Shown here piece by piece: positions 48,973 to 57,060 of a DNA stretch of 64,000 nt (positions within the stretch are counted from its first letter, which is position 1; every line of letters begins with the position of its first letter). Made by a program: the position numbers and the translations under genes. The DNA is from Planctomycetota bacterium (GTDB taxonomy: Bacteria; Planctomycetota; Phycisphaerae; Phycisphaerales; UBA1924): NCBI GenBank assembly GCA_033763975.1, contig JANRJM010000014.1:62001-126000 (forward strand), read 5' to 3'. The notes beneath the pieces are model-generated. The model saw nothing but the letters and a program-made list of their open reading frames with translations, ran no database searches and had not been told where the DNA came from.

Positions 48973-49629
48973 CTACAACTCCCGCAGTACCGCGCGCACC
49001 GGGCTCGCGTCGAACCCCATCAGCCGCAGCGGGAGCGCGATCAGCTCGTACGCGCCCGGCGTGACGGCGTCGAGCGCGAGCCCCTCGAGGATCGAGATGT
49101 CGTGCCTCGCGCACGCGGCGTGCGCCGGCAGGTCCTTGGATGTCTGCAGGTCGACGCTGGGCGTGTCGACGCCGATCGTGATGACCCCCCGGGCCGCGAG
49201 CGCGTCGACGAGCGCCGGCTCGAGCCCGGCGAAGTCGTCGTTCCACGCCTGAAAATCCGGGAACGTGCCGGTGCGGATGAGGACGCGCGGAGCGGCGATG
49301 GCTGCCAGGCCGCCGGCCGTCCCCCCCGGCAGGTGGCGGGCGACGTCCTCGACCCGGACGCGCGAGCCGCGGGCGACGGGCGCGTCCACGACCATGCACA
49401 GCCCGAGGTAGTACGAGAGATCGCGCTCGCCGATGCCGACACCCGACGGCGTGTAGTGGTTGGGCCCGTCGGCGTGCGCGCCCAGGTGCACGGTGGCGCG
49501 GATGGTGCTGAGCGTGACGCTGTCGCCCTTCGCGAGTTCGCACAGCACCTCGCGGGTCATCGGCGTATCGCCTGGCCACACGCCCAGCCGCGCCGTGAGC
49601 GGCGGCGTGATGTCGTACACGCGCGTCAT
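48973..49629 (-). CDS. kynB: Kynurenine formamidase (arylformamidase)
   Basis: A 218-residue cyclase-family hydrolase that converts N-formylkynurenine to kynurenine and formate. It starts MTRVYDITPPLTARLGVWPG and has the metal-binding HLGAHADGPNHY near residues 50-61. Length and pattern match bacterial KynB; the related cyclase family is excluded by the flanking kmo and kynU. It is last in a four-gene chain; its start overlaps the kmo stop by four bases. Confidence 0.9.
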   Translation of the reverse strand: MTRVYDITPPLTARLGVWPGDTPMTREVLCELAKGDSVTLSTIRATVHLGAHADGPNHYTPSGVGIGERDLSYYLGLCMVVDAPVARGSRVRVEDVARHLPGGTAGGLAAIAAPRVLIRTGTFPDFQAWNDDFAGLEPALVDALAARGVITIGVDTPSVDLQTSKDLPAHAACARHDISILEGLALDAVTPGAYELIALPLRLMGFDASPVRAVLREL

Positions 49630-51041
49630 CGGTGGTCACTCCGTGCGGAAGCCCGGCCCTCGCCCGGCGCGAGCGGCGTGATCGTGCGCAGGTGCGGACG
49701 GGCGGCGTCGAGCACGTGCGCGTCCCACGCCGGGTGCCCCCACGCGCTCGCCGGCACGTCGCCCGCAATCGCGTACAGCAACGCGTTCATCTCGCGTCCC
49801 CGCCGCTGCGCTACGGCGTACGGCACCGTCGAAAAGCTCACCAGGTTGTACTGCGGCGTCACGTCGTCGCCGCGCAGGCGGTGCAGCGTCTGCTCGATCC
49901 GCTTGCGGTGCTGGAAGTCCTCCCGCCCCGCGAGGTCGCGCATCTCCACGAAGTTCTCGATCGCCATGTCGGCGATGGCATCGGCGTTCGGCTTGCGGGC
50001 GCGCTCGAACGCGGGCAGCGCCGTCCCGAAGTCGCCGGCGTGCGCGTCGAGCAGCTCGGCCAGCACGCGGACGTCCTCGAACCCGCAGTTCATCCCCTGG
50101 CCGTAGAACGGCACGATCGCGTGCGCCGCGTCTCCCAACACCGCGACGGTGCCCGCGTGCTGCCAGGGCCAGCAGCGCACGGTGACGAGCGAGCCGACGG
50201 GGTTGTGGGCGTAGTCGTAGGGCAGGGTGGGCATCAGCGGGAGCGCGTCGGGGTAGTGCTGCCCGAAGAACGCCTCGACGCGCGTTGGCTCCCCCGGCGG
50301 GAGGGCGGCGAAGGAGTGCTCGCCCTCGAAGGGCCAGAACAGCGTGCAGGTGAACGATCCGTCGCGGTTGGGCAGGGCGATCATCATCGAGCCGCCGCGG
50401 GGCCAGATGTGCAGCGCGTGCTGTTCCATGGCGTGCTCGACGCCCGCGCGCGCGGGGATGTGCAGTTCCTTGTACCCGTGCGCGAGGTACGACTGGCTGT
50501 ACTCGAAGCGGTCGGTCTTCTGGAGGCGTCCGCGCACGGGCGAGAACGCGCCGTCCGCGCCGAGGACGACGTCGGCGTCGATGCGCCGCGCGGCGCCGTC
50601 GGGCGTGCGGAACACGCCCGCGGGCGCGTCGAGATCGACGTCCTCGCACGCGTGGTCGAAGGTGAGTTCGACGTTGGGCTCGGCCGCGGCGGCCCGCAGC
50701 AGCGTGAGGTTGAGATCGCCCCGCGAGACGGAGTTGATCGCGTCGGCGGGGTTGGCGCTGTAGGGCTGGAAGGCGGTGCGCCCGGCGACGTCGTGCAGCA
50801 TCCGCCCGGGCATGGCGATCGCGTCGCGCTCCATGACGACCGAATCCAGCCCGACGCCGGCCAGCCCCCACAGCCCGCGCACCGAGAGCGCGAGGTTGAT
50901 CGAGCGCCCGCCGGCGTAGCCCCGCACGCGCGGGTCGGAGCGGCGTTCGACGACGTACACGCGCATGCCGCGCCGCGCGAGGTACACCGCCAGCAGCGAC
51001 CCGCAGAGCCCGGCGCCCACGATCAGCACGCGCGTCGTCAT
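49626..51041 (-). CDS. kmo: Kynurenine 3-monooxygenase
   Basis: A 471-residue FAD monooxygenase making 3-hydroxykynurenine from kynurenine with NADPH and oxygen. FAD-binding GAGLCGSLLAVYLARRG is at the N-terminus, YAGGRSINLALSVRGL follows (the conserved Kmo segment), and GDAAHAIVPFYGQGMNCGFED is near residue 305. The C-terminal membrane-anchor helix of the animal enzyme is not seen. It overlaps kynU upstream and kynB downstream by four bases each. Confidence 0.93.
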   Translation of the reverse strand: MTTRVLIVGAGLCGSLLAVYLARRGMRVYVVERRSDPRVRGYAGGRSINLALSVRGLWGLAGVGLDSVVMERDAIAMPGRMLHDVAGRTAFQPYSANPADAINSVSRGDLNLTLLRAAAAEPNVELTFDHACEDVDLDAPAGVFRTPDGAARRIDADVVLGADGAFSPVRGRLQKTDRFEYSQSYLAHGYKELHIPARAGVEHAMEQHALHIWPRGGSMMIALPNRDGSFTCTLFWPFEGEHSFAALPPGEPTRVEAFFGQHYPDALPLMPTLPYDYAHNPVGSLVTVRCWPWQHAGTVAVLGDAAHAIVPFYGQGMNCGFEDVRVLAELLDAHAGDFGTALPAFERARKPNADAIADMAIENFVEMRDLAGREDFQHRKRIEQTLHRLRGDDVTPQYNLVSFSTVPYAVAQRRGREMNALLYAIAGDVPASAWGHPAWDAHVLDAARPHLRTITPLAPGEGRASARSDHR

Positions 51042-52510
51042 GCGCCGGCTCCGTTCGCGCCCGGCGTGAGCACCTCGCCGAGGATCGCGGCGAACGCGCG
51101 CACGTCGGCGAACGTGGTGTACAGCGGGACGGGCGCGGCGCGGATGACGTCGGGCTCGCGGAAGTCGCAGACCACGCCCCTGGCCTGCAGGCGCCGGAAG
51201 GCGGCGCGGGCGTCGCCCGGCAGGCGCAGCGAGAGCTGGCAGCCGCGCTGCGCGGGGTCGCGGGGCGTCAGCACGCGCACCGCCGCCCCGGGGTGCCGGC
51301 GGGCGTGCGCGTCGAGCAGGAACTCGAGGTAGGCGGTGAGACGTTCGCTCTTGGCGCGGAGCGCATCCATGCCGGCCTGCGCGAAGATCGCGAGCGAGAC
51401 GCGCAGCGGCGCGAGGGCGAGCACCGGCGGGTTGCTGAGCTGCCACGCGTCGGCGCTCGCGACGGGCACGAACTCGGGCGTCATGCGGAAGCGCGTGGCG
51501 GGGTCGTTGCCCCACCATCCGGCGAAGCGGGGGAGGGGACCCGCACGGAGTGCGGGGGTACCCGGAGCGGGGGGTCTCGGAGAAGACCCCGCACGGAGTG
51601 CGGGGGTACCCGGGGGAAGGTGACGTTCGTGCACGAACGCGCCGGCGACCGCGCCCGGGCCGCTGTTGAGGTACTTGTACGAGCACCACGCCGCGAAGTC
51701 GGGGGCGTCGTCGTGGAGTCGCAGGCGGAGGTTCCCCGCGGCGTGGGCGAGGTCCCACCCGACGACGACGCCGCGCTCGCGGGCGAAGCGCGTGATGGCG
51801 GGGATGTCGAACGCCTGGCCCGAGAGGTAGTTCACGCCCCCGAGCAGCACGAGGGCGATCGAGGCGCGCTCGCGGTCGATGGCGGCGAGGATGTCGTCGG
51901 TGCGGAGCGTGGCCTCGCCCGCGCGCGGGCGCAGACGCAGGACCGCGCCCGCGGCGTCGAAGCCCGCGCGGCTGGCGTGGAAGTCGGCCTGGCTCTGCAC
52001 CGCGTACGAGTCGCTGGGAAACGCCTGGTCCTCGATGACGATCTTGTATCGCTCGCGCGTGGGGCGGTAGAACGAGACCATCAGCAGGTGCAGGTTCGTC
52101 GTGAGCGAGTTCATCGCGACGACCTCACGCGGGAGCGCTCCCACGACCGAGGCGAGCGCATCGCGGACTTCTTCGTGCGCGGGGTACCACGGGTGGGCCG
52201 CCTTGAAGTGCCCCTCGACGCCCAGGCGCGCCCAATCGTCGAGTTCCTGCTCGAGTGCGCCCCGCGTGGCGCGCGGCATCAGCCCGAGCGAGTTGCCCAC
52301 GAGGTAGATGCACTCGGCGTCCCCGCCGCCCCGCGGGGCGACGGCCTGCGGCGCGTCGTGGTTCGTGCGCGGTGCGGCGTTGCCGGCGTGCGCGACGTCC
52401 GCGGCGCGCGGCACGTGGAAGAGCGATCGGTACTCGCGCAGCGGGTCGGCCGCGTCCAGCTCGCGGGCGGACGCGTCGTCCTCGCGGAACTGCCCGTCGG
52501 CTGGCGTCAC
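51038..52510 (-). CDS. kynU: Kynureninase with repeat-derived insertion
   Basis: A 490-residue PLP enzyme cleaving 3-hydroxykynurenine to 3-hydroxyanthranilate and alanine. The PLP lysine is Lys279 in CSYKYLNSGPGAV. It is longer than the usual 410-430 residues for two reasons: a loop of about 30 residues near 35-65 (VPRAADVAHAGNAAPR) and a block at about 300-325 that falls between HERH and FAGWWG. That block, containing PGTPALRAG twice, is encoded by two palindromic repeats of a genomic family. The GTG start overlaps the stop of the ThuA gene (GTGA), and the kynU stop overlaps kmo. The active-site residues look intact. Confidence 0.92.
   Translation of the reverse strand: MTPADGQFREDDASARELDAADPLREYRSLFHVPRAADVAHAGNAAPRTNHDAPQAVAPRGGGDAECIYLVGNSLGLMPRATRGALEQELDDWARLGVEGHFKAAHPWYPAHEEVRDALASVVGALPREVVAMNSLTTNLHLLMVSFYRPTRERYKIVIEDQAFPSDSYAVQSQADFHASRAGFDAAGAVLRLRPRAGEATLRTDDILAAIDRERASIALVLLGGVNYLSGQAFDIPAITRFARERGVVVGWDLAHAAGNLRLRLHDDAPDFAAWCSYKYLNSGPGAVAGAFVHERHLPPGTPALRAGSSPRPPAPGTPALRAGPLPRFAGWWGNDPATRFRMTPEFVPVASADAWQLSNPPVLALAPLRVSLAIFAQAGMDALRAKSERLTAYLEFLLDAHARRHPGAAVRVLTPRDPAQRGCQLSLRLPGDARAAFRRLQARGVVCDFREPDVIRAAPVPLYTTFADVRAFAAILGEVLTPGANGAGA
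51536..51613. repeat. GGA-loop palindromes inside kynU
   Basis: Two copies (51536-51565 and 51585-51613) of a hairpin with arm CCCCGCAC, loop GGA and arm GTGCGGGG, followed by GTACCCGG. The first has one base fewer in the left arm. The same plan with different arms is found at 56867-57015. The insert keeps the kynU frame. Confidence 0.9.
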
Positions 52511-53988
52511 TCGCTCGCCTCGCGCGCGGGGGCAGCGCCCGTCCCGGGGCCCAGTCGCCGGAGCTTGATGTTGCGGTACCAGACGGGGTCGCCGTGGTCC
52601 TGCAGGGTGATGCGCCCGGTCGTGGGCTCGCCGAAGCCGGGCATCGTCGCGAACTTGCTGTTCTTCATGGCCTCGGCGTAGGCGGGGCTCGCGGTGTCGA
52701 TATCGACGACCTTGAACCCGTTGAGCCAGTGCTCGATGCGCGTGCCGACCGCGACGATGCGCGCGTGGTTCCACTCGCCCGCGGGGCGGGCGGTGTCGTG
52801 CGCGAGCGCGAAGAGGTCGTACATGCAGCCGGCGCGGGTCTTGGGCTTCTTGCCGTCGACGTGGCGGAGATCGTCGAGCACCTGGAACTCGCGCCCGGTG
52901 CGCCAGGGGTAGTCGTGCCCTTCGGCGGCGCGATACATGATCCCGCTGTTGCCGCCGGGGCCCACTTTCCACTCGATCGAGAGTTCGAAGTCGGCGTAGT
53001 CGGCGTCGGTGGCGATGTCGCCCCCGCCGTTGCCGGGGGTGAAGCAGAGCGTGCCGCCCTGCACGCTCCAGCCGGCCTTGGGGAATCCCTCCTGCCGCCA
53101 CGCGTGCCAGCCGGCGGTGGTGCTGCCGTCGAAGAGCAACGTCCAGCCGGCGGCCTGCTCTTCCGGCGTCAGCGCATTGTGCGGGCGCGTGTCCGACCAC
53201 TGCGGGTCGAGGGTCACCTTGCCGGTGGCGGCCCACTCGGCCCCGCGCACCAGGAGCGCCCGGAAGCCCGGGTTCACCACGCTCACCTTGGTCGCGTCCT
53301 GCTTTTCCCAGGTATGTCCCAAGGGCGTGGCGAAGACGCGGCCCTGGCCCCAGGTGCGGGTGAGGGCCATGGGCTCGTACTTGCCGCTGCCGCCGCTTTC
53401 CGTCGAGGACATGGCGCGGGCGAGGAGCGTGTACTCGGCGCCGTGGGGGTTCACCATGTTGTGGTAGAGCTCGTCGGGGGTGGTGAAGTCGGCGATGCCC
53501 TTGACGATCGGGTGGTCACGGTCGACGAACTCGACGGTGAACTCGTGGAACTTGCCGTGGGTGGTCTCGCCCTTGCGCCACATCAGCGCGTGCATGCGTT
53601 CGTAGTCTTCCCAGCCCCGGAAGGCGTTGTTGGAGGCGTGGATGGAGACGAGGCCGCAGCCGCGCCGGATGTGGTCGGAGAAGGCCTTCTCGATGTCTTC
53701 GGGCCAGCGCTCCTCGGCGTTGTAGTCGAGCACGATGAGCTGGTGCCGGGCGAGCATGCCCGGGCTGGCGAGGTCGCGCGCAGGATCATCGGTGATGGTG
53801 ACGTCGAACCGGCCGGTGGCCTCGAGCGTGTCGGCGTGGACGCGGCTCGTGTAGCGCCAGTTGTGGTTGTTCTTCCCGGTGATGAGCAGCGTGCGGATGG
53901 GCTGGGCGCCGGCGGGCGCGAGCAGGGAGAAGGGGTGCGTCCCGCAGCAGAAGACGAGGAACGTGAGGAGCGCGAGGTATCGGGTCAT
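52507..53988 (-). CDS. Exported ThuA-DUF1080 fusion protein
   Basis: A 493-residue exported protein with a signal peptide (about 1-28). The first domain (about 30-245) is ThuA-like, with LLITGKNNHNWRYTSRV and IHASNNAFRGWEDYERMH; the second (about 275-485) is DUF1080, a LamG-type fold recently linked to 3-keto-glycoside hydrolysis, with GWTLLFDGSTTAGWHAW and GNSGIMYRAAEG. Both domains occur in planctomycete carbohydrate genes. The GTGA overlap with kynU is surprising for this function and makes it the first gene of the kyn chain. Confidence 0.88.
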   Translation of the reverse strand: MTRYLALLTFLVFCCGTHPFSLLAPAGAQPIRTLLITGKNNHNWRYTSRVHADTLEATGRFDVTITDDPARDLASPGMLARHQLIVLDYNAEERWPEDIEKAFSDHIRRGCGLVSIHASNNAFRGWEDYERMHALMWRKGETTHGKFHEFTVEFVDRDHPIVKGIADFTTPDELYHNMVNPHGAEYTLLARAMSSTESGGSGKYEPMALTRTWGQGRVFATPLGHTWEKQDATKVSVVNPGFRALLVRGAEWAATGKVTLDPQWSDTRPHNALTPEEQAAGWTLLFDGSTTAGWHAWRQEGFPKAGWSVQGGTLCFTPGNGGGDIATDADYADFELSIEWKVGPGGNSGIMYRAAEGHDYPWRTGREFQVLDDLRHVDGKKPKTRAGCMYDLFALAHDTARPAGEWNHARIVAVGTRIEHWLNGFKVVDIDTASPAYAEAMKNSKFATMPGFGEPTTGRITLQDHGDPVWYRNIKLRRLGPGTGAAPAREASE

Positions 53989-54081
53989 GGGGACCTCCGG
54001 ATTGCGGGTCAGGATATCGCGCGCGGGGCGGAAGGGGGGGCCAGCACCGATGCGCGGTGCGCGGGTTGGGGGCGGCGCAAT

Positions 54082-54140
54082 CCGGGGGTGCCGCTTCGCG
54101 GCGACCCCCGGCTATTGAACGGCGCGGCTACGCCGCGGGG
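54082..54140. repeat. Palindromic element, copy 3
   Basis: CCGGGGGTGCCGC, loop TTC, GCGGCGACCCCCGGCTATT and then GGCGCGGCTACGCCGCG. This is the cleanest plus-strand copy. It is in the 312-base spacer 53989-54300, which also holds the octamer array; I see no gene there. The stretch 53989-54081 shows nothing recognisable. Confidence 0.85.
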
Positions 54141-54155
54141 AGGGGGGCGTGTAAG

Positions 54156-54299
54156 AGTGGCAAAGTGGCAAAGTGGCAAAGTGGCAAAGTGGCAAAGTGG
54201 CGGAGTGGCGGAGTGGCGGAGTGGCGGAGTGGCGGAGCGGCAGAGTGGCAGAGTGGCAGAGTGGCAGAGTGGCAGAGTGGCAGAGTGGCAGAGCGGATC
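54156..54299. repeat. Octamer array in homogeneous blocks
   Basis: Units of eight bases in order: AGTGGCAA five times, AGTGGCGG five times, AGCGGCAG once, AGTGGCAG six times, then a degenerate end. It abuts the stop of tag (54301). The blocks imply serial expansion of variants rather than one duplication. Confidence 0.95.
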
Positions 54300-54300
54300 G

Positions 54301-54867
54301 CTAGGCGCGTCGTTGCACAGCGTCGCGGCGCGGGCAGTCCGCCAGGTGGTCGTTCACCATGCCGACCGCCTGCATGAACGCGTACATGATCGTGGTGCCG
54401 ACGAACGAGAAGCCGCGGCGTTTCAGGTCCTTCGAGAAGACGTCGGAGACGGGCGAGCGGGGCGGGATGTCGGTGTGCACGCGCGGCGCGGGCGGGGGTT
54501 CTGCGCCCTCGACGAACGACCAGGCGTAGGCCGCGAACGAGCCGCGCTCTTCGGCGACCCGCAGGAACGCGCGGGCGTTGGCGATGGACGCGGCGACCTT
54601 CAGGCGGTTGCGGACGATGCCGGGATCGCCCAGCAGGCGGGCCTGGTCGCGGGACGTGAAGCGGGCGACGGCCTGGGGGTCGAAGCCCGCGTAGACCTCG
54701 CGGTAACGGGCGCGCTTCGCGAGGATGGTCTCCCATGAGAGCCCGGCCTGGGCGCCTTCGAGGATGAGAAACTCGAAGAGCGTGCGGTCGTCTCGCACCG
54801 GCACCCCCCACTCTTCGTCGTGGTACGCGATCGAGAGCGGGGTCTTGGCCCAGGGGCAGCGCGGCAT
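54301..54867 (-). CDS. tag: DNA-3-methyladenine glycosylase I
   Basis: A 188-residue base-excision repair enzyme removing 3-methyladenine. It begins MPRCPW and continues YHDEEWGVPVRDDRTLFEFL, typical of TagA. The structural zinc ligands are Cys4, the His of YHDEEW, and the His and Cys in NDHLADC near the end. The helix-hairpin segment EGAQAGLSWETILAKR is conserved. The stop lies one base beyond the octamer array. It starts 105 bases from the divergent haaO. Confidence 0.93.
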   Translation of the reverse strand: MPRCPWAKTPLSIAYHDEEWGVPVRDDRTLFEFLILEGAQAGLSWETILAKRARYREVYAGFDPQAVARFTSRDQARLLGDPGIVRNRLKVAASIANARAFLRVAEERGSFAAYAWSFVEGAEPPPAPRVHTDIPPRSPVSDVFSKDLKRRGFSFVGTTIMYAFMQAVGMVNDHLADCPRRDAVQRRA

Positions 54868-54972
54868 GCGGGAGCGTAGAAGCAATCGCGCGAGACGGGT
54901 CGGGGCGCGCGCGAGTGCGGTGCGCGGCGCGCGCGGTCGCGTCGACGGGGCACTTGCGGGTATTCTGCGCGC

Positions 54973-55611
54973 ATGAGCACCACGAGCACGCCGATCCTGC
55001 CCCCCCTGAACCTGCAGAAGTGGATCCGTCAGAACGCGAAGGATCTCCAGCCGCCGGTGAGCAACAAGCAGTTGTTCACCGATTCGCCGGACGTGATCCT
55101 GTTCGTGTCGGGCGGGCCGAACACGCGCAACGACTTTCACGTGAACCCGACGGAGGAGCTGTTCTACCAGTTGAAGGGCGACATCGCGGTGCGGCTGCGG
55201 CCTTTGGACGGGGGCAAGCCGTACGACCAGGTGATCCGCGAGGGCGAGTTGTTCCTGCTGCCGCGCTGGGTGCCCCACAGGCCGCAGAGGCCCAAGGGGA
55301 CGGTGGGGCTGATCGTGGAGTTCCCGCGCGGGAAGGACGCGCGGGGGCGGCCTCAGCAGGACGGGCTGCGGTGGTACTGCCCGGCGTGCGACGAACTGGT
55401 GTACGAGGCGCGCTGGGTGCTGAAGCGCGTGGACGAGGACCTCAAGGTCATCATGCACGACTTCTGGGACGGGCCGGAGAAGCGCCGGACGTGCAAGGCG
55501 TGCGGCACGGTGATCCAGCGGGCCGGGGCGATTGAGTTGAAGGCGGGGAAGGTGCGGGCGGCGGGGAAGTCGAAGGGCACGGGCGCGCGGGCGAGGGCGA
55601 AGAAGAAGTGA
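54973..55611 (+). CDS. haaO: 3-Hydroxyanthranilate 3,4-dioxygenase
   Basis: A 212-residue cupin dioxygenase opening the ring of 3-hydroxyanthranilate to 2-amino-3-carboxymuconate semialdehyde. Iron ligands lie in DFHVNPTEELFYQ (His and Glu) and WVPHRPQRP (His). The C-terminus has the rubredoxin-like second metal site of the bacterial form, WYCPACDEL and CKACGTV. The tail is basic (KKK) and variable. Its G-rich third codon positions differ from most neighbours. It pairs with the ACMSD gene on the same strand. Confidence 0.93.
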   Translation: MSTTSTPILPPLNLQKWIRQNAKDLQPPVSNKQLFTDSPDVILFVSGGPNTRNDFHVNPTEELFYQLKGDIAVRLRPLDGGKPYDQVIREGELFLLPRWVPHRPQRPKGTVGLIVEFPRGKDARGRPQQDGLRWYCPACDELVYEARWVLKRVDEDLKVIMHDFWDGPEKRRTCKACGTVIQRAGAIELKAGKVRAAGKSKGTGARARAKKK

Positions 55612-55615
55612 CGGC

Positions 55616-55645
55616 CTGCTCGGTGCGTGGCTGCTCGGTGCGTGC
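55616..55645. repeat. 15-base tandem duplication after haaO
   Basis: CTGCTCGGTGCGTGG and CTGCTCGGTGCGTGC begin four bases after the haaO stop. This is a further example of duplication next to a stop codon. Confidence 0.85.
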
Positions 55646-55712
55646 CCATGTGGTCTGGACTGCGGCGTGTCCGACGCCGCCGGCGTGGGCGTCGTAGGCT
55701 GATCGGCCGACC

Positions 55713-56831
55713 ATGTTGACGATCGACCTCCACACTCACATGCTGCCCGAGCGCTGGCCCGACTGGACGCAGCGCAGCGGCTATCCGGGCTGGATCGCGC
55801 TCGAGCGATTCGAGCGCGACGGCTGCCCCTGCGGACGCATGATCCGGCGCGAGGCGGGCGGGGGCGTCACAAACTTCCGCGAGGTGCGCGAGAACCTCTG
55901 GAGCCCCGCGGCCCGGCTGCGCGACATGGACGCGTGCGGCGTGCACGTCCAGGTGCTCAGCACCGTGCCGGTGATGTTCTCGTACTGGGCGCGCGCGACC
56001 GACGCGTACGACCTGGCGCGGCTGCTGAACGATCACATCGCGGAGGTCTGCCGCGCGGGGCCGCGGGTGGAGGTGGCGGAAGGTTCGCCGCGCGGGCCGG
56101 GGGTGGCGCGGCTTGTGGGGCTGGGGACGGTGCCGATGCAAGACCCCGGGCTGGCATGCCGCGAGGTGGAGCGGTGCGTGGGAGAACTGGGGCTGGCGGG
56201 GGTGCAGATCGGGACGAACGTGAACGGGGCGAACCTGGATGATCCGGGCGTGTTCGAGGTGCTGCGCGAGTGTGAGCGGGTGGGTGCGTGCGTGTTCGTG
56301 CACCCGTGGGACATGATGCGGAGCGCGGGCGGGAAGGACACCGGCGGGACGCCGGTGCCACCCATGCTCGGAGAGCGATACTCCAAGTACTGGGCGGCGT
56401 GGCTGGTGGGCATGCCGGTCGAGACGACGATGGCGATGATGGCGATGTTGTTCGGGGGCGTGCTGGATCGCCTGCCGCGGCTGCGGGTGTGCTTTGCGCA
56501 CGGGGGGGGCTCCTTCCCGGGCACGATCGGACGGATCGCGCACGGGTTCGAATGCCGCCGGGATTTGTTTGCGGAGGAGGCGCGGCATCCGCGCGAGTAT
56601 CTGGCGGGGGCGGGTGGGCCGGCGCGGATGTATGTTGATTCGCTGGTGCACGACGCCGACGCGCTGCGGCACGTGGTGCGGCTGTTCGGTGCCGCCCGCG
56701 TGGCGCTGGGGAGCGACTACCCGTTCCCGCTCGGCGAGGACCGCCCGGGGACGCTGGCGCGGGCGGTGCTCTCTGGAGACGAGCTGCGCGCGGTGCTGGG
56801 CGGCGCGGCGGCGGAGTTTCTGGGGATGTAG
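55713..56831 (+). CDS. Aminocarboxymuconate-semialdehyde decarboxylase with repeat-derived insertion
   Basis: A 372-residue amidohydrolase of the ACMSD group, which removes CO2 from ACMS and so keeps it from forming quinolinate. Zinc ligands are in IDLHTHMLPE, FVHPWDMM and LGSDYPFPLGE, and FAHGGGSFPGTIGRIAHGF is conserved. Between PWDMM and ERYSKYW there are about 12 extra residues (GGKDTGGTPVPPM) encoded by a GGA-loop palindrome. The gene follows haaO by 101 bases. Codon use shifts to G-ending triplets after about 56050. No symbol is used because the bacterial naming varies. Confidence 0.9.
   Translation: MLTIDLHTHMLPERWPDWTQRSGYPGWIALERFERDGCPCGRMIRREAGGGVTNFREVRENLWSPAARLRDMDACGVHVQVLSTVPVMFSYWARATDAYDLARLLNDHIAEVCRAGPRVEVAEGSPRGPGVARLVGLGTVPMQDPGLACREVERCVGELGLAGVQIGTNVNGANLDDPGVFEVLRECERVGACVFVHPWDMMRSAGGKDTGGTPVPPMLGERYSKYWAAWLVGMPVETTMAMMAMLFGGVLDRLPRLRVCFAHGGGSFPGTIGRIAHGFECRRDLFAEEARHPREYLAGAGGPARMYVDSLVHDADALRHVVRLFGAARVALGSDYPFPLGEDRPGTLARAVLSGDELRAVLGGAAAEFLGM
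56339..56357. repeat. GGA-loop palindrome inside the ACMSD gene
   Basis: CACCGGCG, loop GGA, CGCCGGTG (56339-56357), followed by CCACCC. A perfect eight-base stem inside the coding sequence, in frame. Confidence 0.9.
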
Positions 56832-56866
56832 GGTGGTCGGTCTTTGGGGGGATGTAGGGTGGGAAG

Positions 56867-57015
56867 GACTCCCCACGGAGTGGGGAGGTACCCGGAAGGT
56901 ACCCGGAAAAGACTCCCCGCGGAGCGGGGAGGTACGCAGGAGAAGACTCCCCGCGGAGCGGGGAGGTAGCCAGGAGGTATCCGGACAGGACTCCCCACGG
57001 AGTGGGGAGGTACCC
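56867..57015. repeat. Cluster of four GGA-loop palindromes
   Basis: Copies at 56867-56893, 56911-56935, 56945-56971 and 56989-57015. The first and fourth have CTCCCCAC/GTGGGGAG, the second and third CTCCCCGC/GCGGGGAG, so the base pair next to the loop changes on both sides at once. The loop is always GGA, and GGTA or GTACCC follows. It lies between the convergent ACMSD gene and the Gfo/Idh/MocA gene and contains no coding sequence. Confidence 0.95.
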
Positions 57016-57060
57016 AAGAGGTACCCAAGAGAGAATCAAGAGAAACCCGGAGCTATTCGA

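Follow-up and report, generated by a model that had tools for sequence, protein, structure and literature searches.

The kynU gene of a planctomycete raises the question of how palindromic repeats come to lie in frame inside a gene for a conserved enzyme, and which element put them there. The window, that is the whole stretch of 64,000 nucleotides analysed here, belongs to contig JANRJM010000014.1 of a Planctomycetota bacterium. A first-pass annotation of it had reported a palindromic repeat in frame inside kynU, and this is confirmed: two identical 26-nt palindromes (51540-51565 and 51588-51613), with starts 48 nt apart, lie on the minus strand in a gene whose product is a kynureninase by TIGR01814 (E = 3.5e-125) and KYNU_C (Table 1). 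At up to three mismatches no third copy was found in the window, and shuffling gave 0 in 100. The sense strand of the unit is the minus strand, on which it reads GGGTAC-stem-TCC-stem. Of the two hairpin units proposed, both are present and code for GTPALRAG, but their stems differ, with 7 bp in the first and 8 bp in the second.

Table 1. Positions in the window of kynU and of the REP units in and near it.
Feature	Position	Strand	Description
kynU, kynureninase	51038..52507	-	TIGR01814, KYNU_C and alignment with 29 relatives; true start codon uncertain
REP unit 1 in kynU	51536..51563	-	GTAC foot, 7-bp stem, TCC loop; codes for GTPALRAG
REP unit 2 in kynU	51584..51611	-	GTAC foot, 8-bp stem, TCC loop; codes for GTPALRAG; oriented as unit 1
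REP of second type	56336..56363	-	GTGG foot; codes for GGTPVPP; in frame in ACMSD-like amidohydrolase 55713-56831 (+)
REP unit	56866..56893	-	Intergenic array between two convergent genes
REP unit	56910..56937	-	Stem variant CCCCGC/GCGGGG; same intergenic array
REP unit	56944..56971	-	CTAC foot; same intergenic array
REP unit	56988..57015	-	Same intergenic array

The insert amounts to about 22 residues between VHERH and PRFAGWWG, and the SYKYLN motif, with the lysine that had been annotated as intact, is present despite the block. As had been suggested, kynU seems to tolerate the insert. Human kynureninase (3e9k) lacks the block, showing a gap at about residue 300. A search for KynU gave some match in 39 of 61 genomes, weak ones to other aminotransferases included, and the 29 relatives with loci given were aligned. 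None of the 29 carries the block, and neither of the outcomes named in the annotation as refuting, a block conserved across distant kynureninases or a hairpin that does not recur, was observed; five proteins of the same genus (74-76% identical over the matched parts) run straight across the insert site. A kynureninase of another genus (L079, genome G015) has a different hairpin in the same loop, with a GGGTAC foot and a TCC loop, and several other relatives have other short inserts there, which points to a loop that tolerates insertions. The block can be read through in all six frames without a stop codon. This was rejected as remarkable by itself, since the window is GC-rich and 12% of its random 95-nt stretches are likewise open in six frames. 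Chance or low complexity as the origin of the block was also rejected, given the shuffles, the genome-wide recurrence and the absence in the 29 relatives.

The annotation had likened the block to the palindromic elements of Rickettsia. This is not the best analogy, because the same hairpins flank a REP-associated tyrosine transposase (RAYT) of this genome, which makes them REP elements. A genome-wide search for the hairpin, proposed together with the alignment as a check, found it at coding and non-coding sites. A count of the 20-nt pattern CACGGAGTGNGGNGGTACCC gave 18 in the own genome and 0 in 60 relatives; for its reversed form the count was 0. A pattern search of the own genome returned ten matches, and a looser one further matches with stems CGCAC/GTGCG, CACAC/GTGTG and CCCAC/GTGGG. 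As the looser search as a whole was not above its reversed control (22+25 versus 23+22), solely matches with hairpin and foot were kept. The regions fetched around the matches hold 23 REP units at 11 sites (27 rows, minus three presumed chance hairpins and one REP of another type), a lower bound for the genome in that these regions are not the whole of it.

Fifteen of the 23 units, at six of the 11 sites, lie inside genes with NCBIfam matches, namely kynU, serA, ligA (in two places), uvrA and leuS, and all of them are in frame. REPs are expected mostly outside genes; we see extragenic location as customary in the family without its defining membership. Across the host genes both strands of the unit are read, in three different ways. 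Five sites have no host gene, among them the array at 56866-57015. A location in genes was considered for the sites on C7, C9 (two) and C13 and rejected: at the three sites with long frames scanned no Pfam domain spans the site, the fourth site (C9:15.7 kb) has no frame of 150 aa, and all four were taken as intergenic. With a stem of 8 bp (7 in some) and a loop of 3 nt, the units fit the short palindromes (stems of 5-13 bp) of the GTAG superfamily; the copy number is low. Among 18 distinct units 98.6% of the stem cells are paired, and 18 cells carry changes in both partners, where shuffles give 4.3 and none of 500 is as high; the stem thus covaries. The foot is GTAC in 19 of the 23 units. A point against the REP-RAYT reading is that the kynU copies stand in tandem direct orientation, not as the inverted pairs usual for REPINs.

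Some related inserts were seen beside these. In serA (L045, contig C6 of the own genome) the REP units are repeated in tandem with a 39-bp period, possibly as a length-variable linker; we take this site to be the linker before the ACT domain. The GTGG-footed REP of the second type falls within a segment that human ACMSD (4igm) lacks. Allowing up to three mismatches, the genome has seven copies of it, and the reversed pattern gives 0. At 49626-57039 of the window, kynU and the ACMSD-like gene are near each other and both carry REP inserts; the gene adjoining kynU, by its sequence presumably a kynurenine monooxygenase, is the one of the three without such an insert.

Where the RAYT of this family resides was found with PF01797, which matched three Y1_Tnp places in the own genome. 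A REP of the kynU type stands beside one of the three, on contig C5; the Y1_Tnp genes on C6 and C1 were rejected as its source, as their flanks show other inverted repeats. On C5, leuS is a single open frame of 1244 codons in which a RAYT is in frame with leucyl-tRNA synthetase (LeuRS). The order is LeuRS to STGAEIEF, two REP peptides, the RAYT, two inverted REP peptides, RVFTTRPDTIFGATYM and the remaining LeuRS. The RAYT is thus flanked by two REP units per side in inverted order; one of these four has a stem mismatch and is outside the 23 counted. The 1244-aa protein matches both TIGR00396 (leuS) and NF047646 (REP-associated tyrosine transposase), the latter with 86 bits against a cut-off of 80. 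Not being a free-standing gene, this RAYT is regarded as a variant of its kind and not as excluded from it. It lies outside the coordinates of the first-pass annotation, and is a larger novelty than the kynU insert.

In an alignment of LeuRS the site is empty in seven relatives (G002, G003, G004, G005, G006, G008 and G037) and filled, at the same site, in G001, G013, G017, G030 and G034. G004, which belongs to the same genus, has a related RAYT in miaA (L213, BQMO01000005) with its leuS empty. In the arms of the leuS RAYTs of relatives, GTAG-footed and GTAC-footed hairpins are both present. About the first 560 nt of C5 (L044) have a GC content of 0.39-0.49, followed by about 0.69, and encode an unusual LeuRS N-terminus; this low-GC start is probably an assembly join or chimera. 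At the end of C13 (L297, 433020-434102) half of a second LeuRS, 59% identical and without RAYT, is cut by the contig end. Given the odd C5 start and this second half, the sole LeuRS copy of the own organism refers to one C-terminal half.

In the loci fetched from planctomycetes, verrucomicrobia and a few other bacteria, this RAYT lineage lies mostly in frame in housekeeping proteins. PF01797 gave at least 14 matches in frames of at least 1200 aa in 61 genomes (the own and 60 relatives). Among 20 regions picked for long frames, 17 have a RAYT in frame in LeuRS, valyl-tRNA synthetase (ValRS) or RdgB, 16 of them with both host halves; in L162 the contig ends inside RdgB, and L168, L169 and L180 show no RAYT in frame in these enzymes. 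A profile (A1) made from 14 embedded RAYT domains matched 98 of 301 genomes of the order at 1e-12, and because of its origin its best matches lean to embedded RAYTs. Frames of at least 399 aa contain 52 of 56 strong and 4 of 94 weaker A1 matches, although frame length alone is no proof. Across the phylum the profile finds a match at 1e-25 in 52 of 392 genomes, and here long frames occur side by side with short ones. From a scan of named genomes the best 80 of 532 relatives were taken. The resulting sets of 30 and 80 loci overlap, and without L283, whose domain is split, they make 109 loci with 91 distinct RAYT domains.

Seventy-nine of the 91 domains are embedded in frame and 12 stand alone. 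The hosts belong to fourteen families, several of them unrelated: ValRS (28), LeuRS (16), RecG (9), DNA methylases (5), RdgB, PurH and AlaRS (4 each), ThrRS and MetH (2 each), and HscA, IleRS, Kbl, MiaA and CarB (one each). NCBIfam matched examples on both sides of the RAYT, or in two or more stretches, for leuS, valS, rdgB, miaA, kbl, purH, hscA, recG, thrS (two), metH (two), ileS, carB and alaS, and Pfam in two stretches each for a type ISP methylase (L279) and a DNA methylase (L257); the host calls of the other rows rest on homology among loci. A single host half was recognised in five of the 79. DUF1156 is found on the N side only in L249 and L252, and the stretch after the RAYT in L249 is unlike its host; PurH is found on the N side only in L254 and L271 and on the C side only in L288, these three being near contig ends. 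By inspection, LeuRS is entered at two sites, the second in L209, L215 and L220. NF047646 scored at or above its cut-off of 80 in 9 of the 21 embedded proteins scanned and at 67-79 bits in the other 12. Nearly all named records, and most of the sequences, are metagenome bins; one exception is a one-contig genome (G093) with the RAYT in ValRS. In addition, the RAYT frame of L283, from a Lamprocystis bin, is itself broken by a REP-like peptide. A different Y1 transposase class, with motifs such as ITFTTYGTWLHGDERGSV, was seen in frame in valS of four genomes (L161 of G047, L164 of G004, L166 of G044 and L174 of G043), at about the same place as the RAYTs.

To test the frame, both host halves were sought in any frame through homology between loci. 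Such a pair was obtained for 78 loci (duplicates included), and in all 78 the RAYT shares the frame of the host before and after it; the 32 loci without a pair are 19 embedded ones with a rare host or short half, the 12 that stand alone, and L283. The two flanks of the RAYT form inverted arms that exceed those of all 40 shuffles in 82 of 96 embedded loci (duplicates included) and in 10 of the 12 standing alone. The embedded RAYT is under purifying selection, with dN/dS of 0.08-0.18 in 10 of 18 pairs, the other 8 being saturated; two standing-alone pairs gave 0.12. Copy number was judged from the C-terminal part of the host enzyme at E 1e-30. The LeuRS C-half occurs once per genome, in frame with the RAYT, in 11 of 11 genomes, and ValRS has a single, RAYT-bearing place in 22 of 26. 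In G047, G128, G271 and G282 the RAYT and ValRS pieces are on two contigs, perhaps because contigs broke at repeats or, for G282, because there is another, partial copy.

HVH is present in 14 of 14 embedded RAYT domains and the catalytic Tyr in 13 of 14, while in 11 LeuRS-RAYT proteins HxGH and KMSK of LeuRS and HVH and Tyr of the RAYT are all invariant. On a tree of the 91 domains, made with a quick method and having many weak forks, at least 22 label changes are needed, against a minimum of 15 for 16 labels ('standing alone' being one) and 58.6 in shuffles; the RAYTs cluster by host and also change host. In a structural model of RdgB-RAYT the RAYT domain folds well, and its best PDB match is 4er8, the structure of a RAYT with a bound REP hairpin. 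In the whole-protein models of RdgB-RAYT and LeuRS-RAYT the host parts are mostly poor, the RAYT domain is better, and the linkers beside it have low confidence in both. An ATG occurs within 70 codons upstream of 44 of the 79 embedded RAYTs; separate translation is thus possible, such internal starts not being decisive.

We read the kynU insert as two REPs of a RAYT-REP system whose RAYT itself lives in frame in leuS, and put the probability of this at about 0.8. The RAYT would cut single-stranded DNA near the hairpin foot and move or copy REPs to new sites. Since a unit has no stop codon in any of the six frames, an insert of fitting length that lands in a protein's surface loop would be translated and could survive. 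At times a whole REP-RAYT-REP unit may enter coding DNA, and in essential genes the survivors would be solely in-frame insertions in loops. The fusion proteins would then be translated through and fold, with the RAYT presumably active; an embedded RAYT would be expressed steadily with its host, and its deletion would be harmful unless exact, to the benefit of the element. TnpA-REP acts on single-stranded REP, which it cuts close to the structure in a way that involves the tetranucleotide (PMC8266576). The prevailing GTAC foot of the own units counts against the reading, as one tested RAYT left a hairpin with this foot uncut, though in a second system such a hairpin was cut at GA or GT instead (PMC8266576). 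A further-reaching view, which we favour by some margin over its negation, is that of a transposase lineage with the interiors of essential proteins as its main home, translated as a host domain, catalytically intact and moving between essential genes. Such a lineage could, with the same modest confidence, be called a transposon with the reading frame as its niche, intein-like but without splicing.

The REP peptides and embedded RAYTs might instead be no longer mobile and serve as useful parts of the host, for instance as a DNA-binding domain domesticated for regulating or localising the enzyme. Such a role would suit the spread of RAYTs in LeuRS and ValRS over many genera, their clustering by host, the purifying selection and the filling of the same loops in many genera. 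Nevertheless, the number of host families, several unrelated, and the close relatives that manage without a RAYT argue against it, and flanking REPs that are still palindromic and inverted, like the mostly intact catalytic residues, would be superfluous for a mere structural domain. Domestication is in our view unlikely, and would still come before the remaining alternatives. That the palindromes are selfish elements of other origin, as in Rickettsia, where short intragenic ones are known, with the RAYT adjacent by chance, draws on the fact that only one of the three own Y1_Tnp places has a kynU-type REP. The same hairpin inverted on either side of that RAYT, and the inverted arms at most embedded and standing-alone loci (82/96 and 10/12), make a chance neighbourhood very improbable.

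Removal of the inserts before the host protein works, by an IStron-like intron or an intein, has in its favour that many introns and inteins insert in essential genes. A frame kept in all testable loci would be superfluous for an intron, however; no group I or II intron was matched in Rfam at gathering scores in seven loci, and no intein model is among the NCBIfam hits listed for 24 proteins (the best 25 hits for two of them). We consider splicing highly improbable. Assembly artefacts or broken genes could be suspected from the metagenome bins among the named records and from the odd 5' end of the own leuS contig, and yet the finds are independent in dozens of genera and in the one-contig genome G093, the RAYT-bearing place is the host enzyme's sole one in most genomes tested, and there are no internal stop codons; this is the least credible account of all. 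The RAYT-REP system with its transposase in leuS is the preferred reading.

A transposase as a domain of an apparently sole LeuRS or ValRS runs counter to the usual view, in which such genes stand by themselves and essential genes are shunned by mobile DNA. This arrangement would account for short peptides such as GTGFQPV, RRDACAT and GTPALRAG, which recur in planctomycete and verrucomicrobial proteins and were also seen here. The embedded RAYTs provide natural examples of where aminoacyl-tRNA synthetases accept large domains, allow tests of how a mobile element may guard itself against deletion, and serve as a warning to annotators who discard RAYT-host fusions as errors.

RAYTs of the REPtron/TnpA-REP type are reportedly described as genes of their own, unlike the embedded ones. 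The present system resembles them (PMC8266576, PMC6006769) as a HUH-Tyr transposase flanked by its own REPs, with 4er8 as structural match. A survey of the RAYT family left out a few proteins of unexpected length, taking them for fused genes or mistakes of annotation (PMC6006769); embedded RAYTs would have this appearance. In-frame REPs within genes are documented from many bacteria, among the examples being uvrA and a DNA ligase gene in the verrucomicrobium Opitutus terrae; REP-coded peptides also occur in tRNA synthetase genes, and GTAG families in planctomycetes and verrucomicrobia (PMC3733652). Accordingly, the kynU insert alone is a further case of known intragenic REPs. The units here are like the GTAG-superfamily REPs in their short hairpin, small loop, unpaired terminal tetranucleotide and RAYT link, and unlike them in the GTAC foot, the few copies, the intragenic position of more than half of the sites and the tandem direct arrays (Di Nocera 2013, PMC3733652). 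The sections of that paper considered here make no mention of a RAYT inside another gene. No account of an embedded RAYT in a housekeeping gene was found in searches of open-licence PMC papers. As far as the literature was searched, the whole RAYT in frame in an essential enzyme is the new part.

For the palindromic elements of Rickettsia no dedicated transposase is known. By description, they are similar in being palindromes in frame in many genes (as cited in PMC3733652). As with inteins and homing introns in general, a DNA-processing enzyme is hidden inside conserved essential genes; unlike these, and with no splicing element among the NCBIfam hits listed or in the Rfam scan of seven loci, the insert here appears to stay in the protein.
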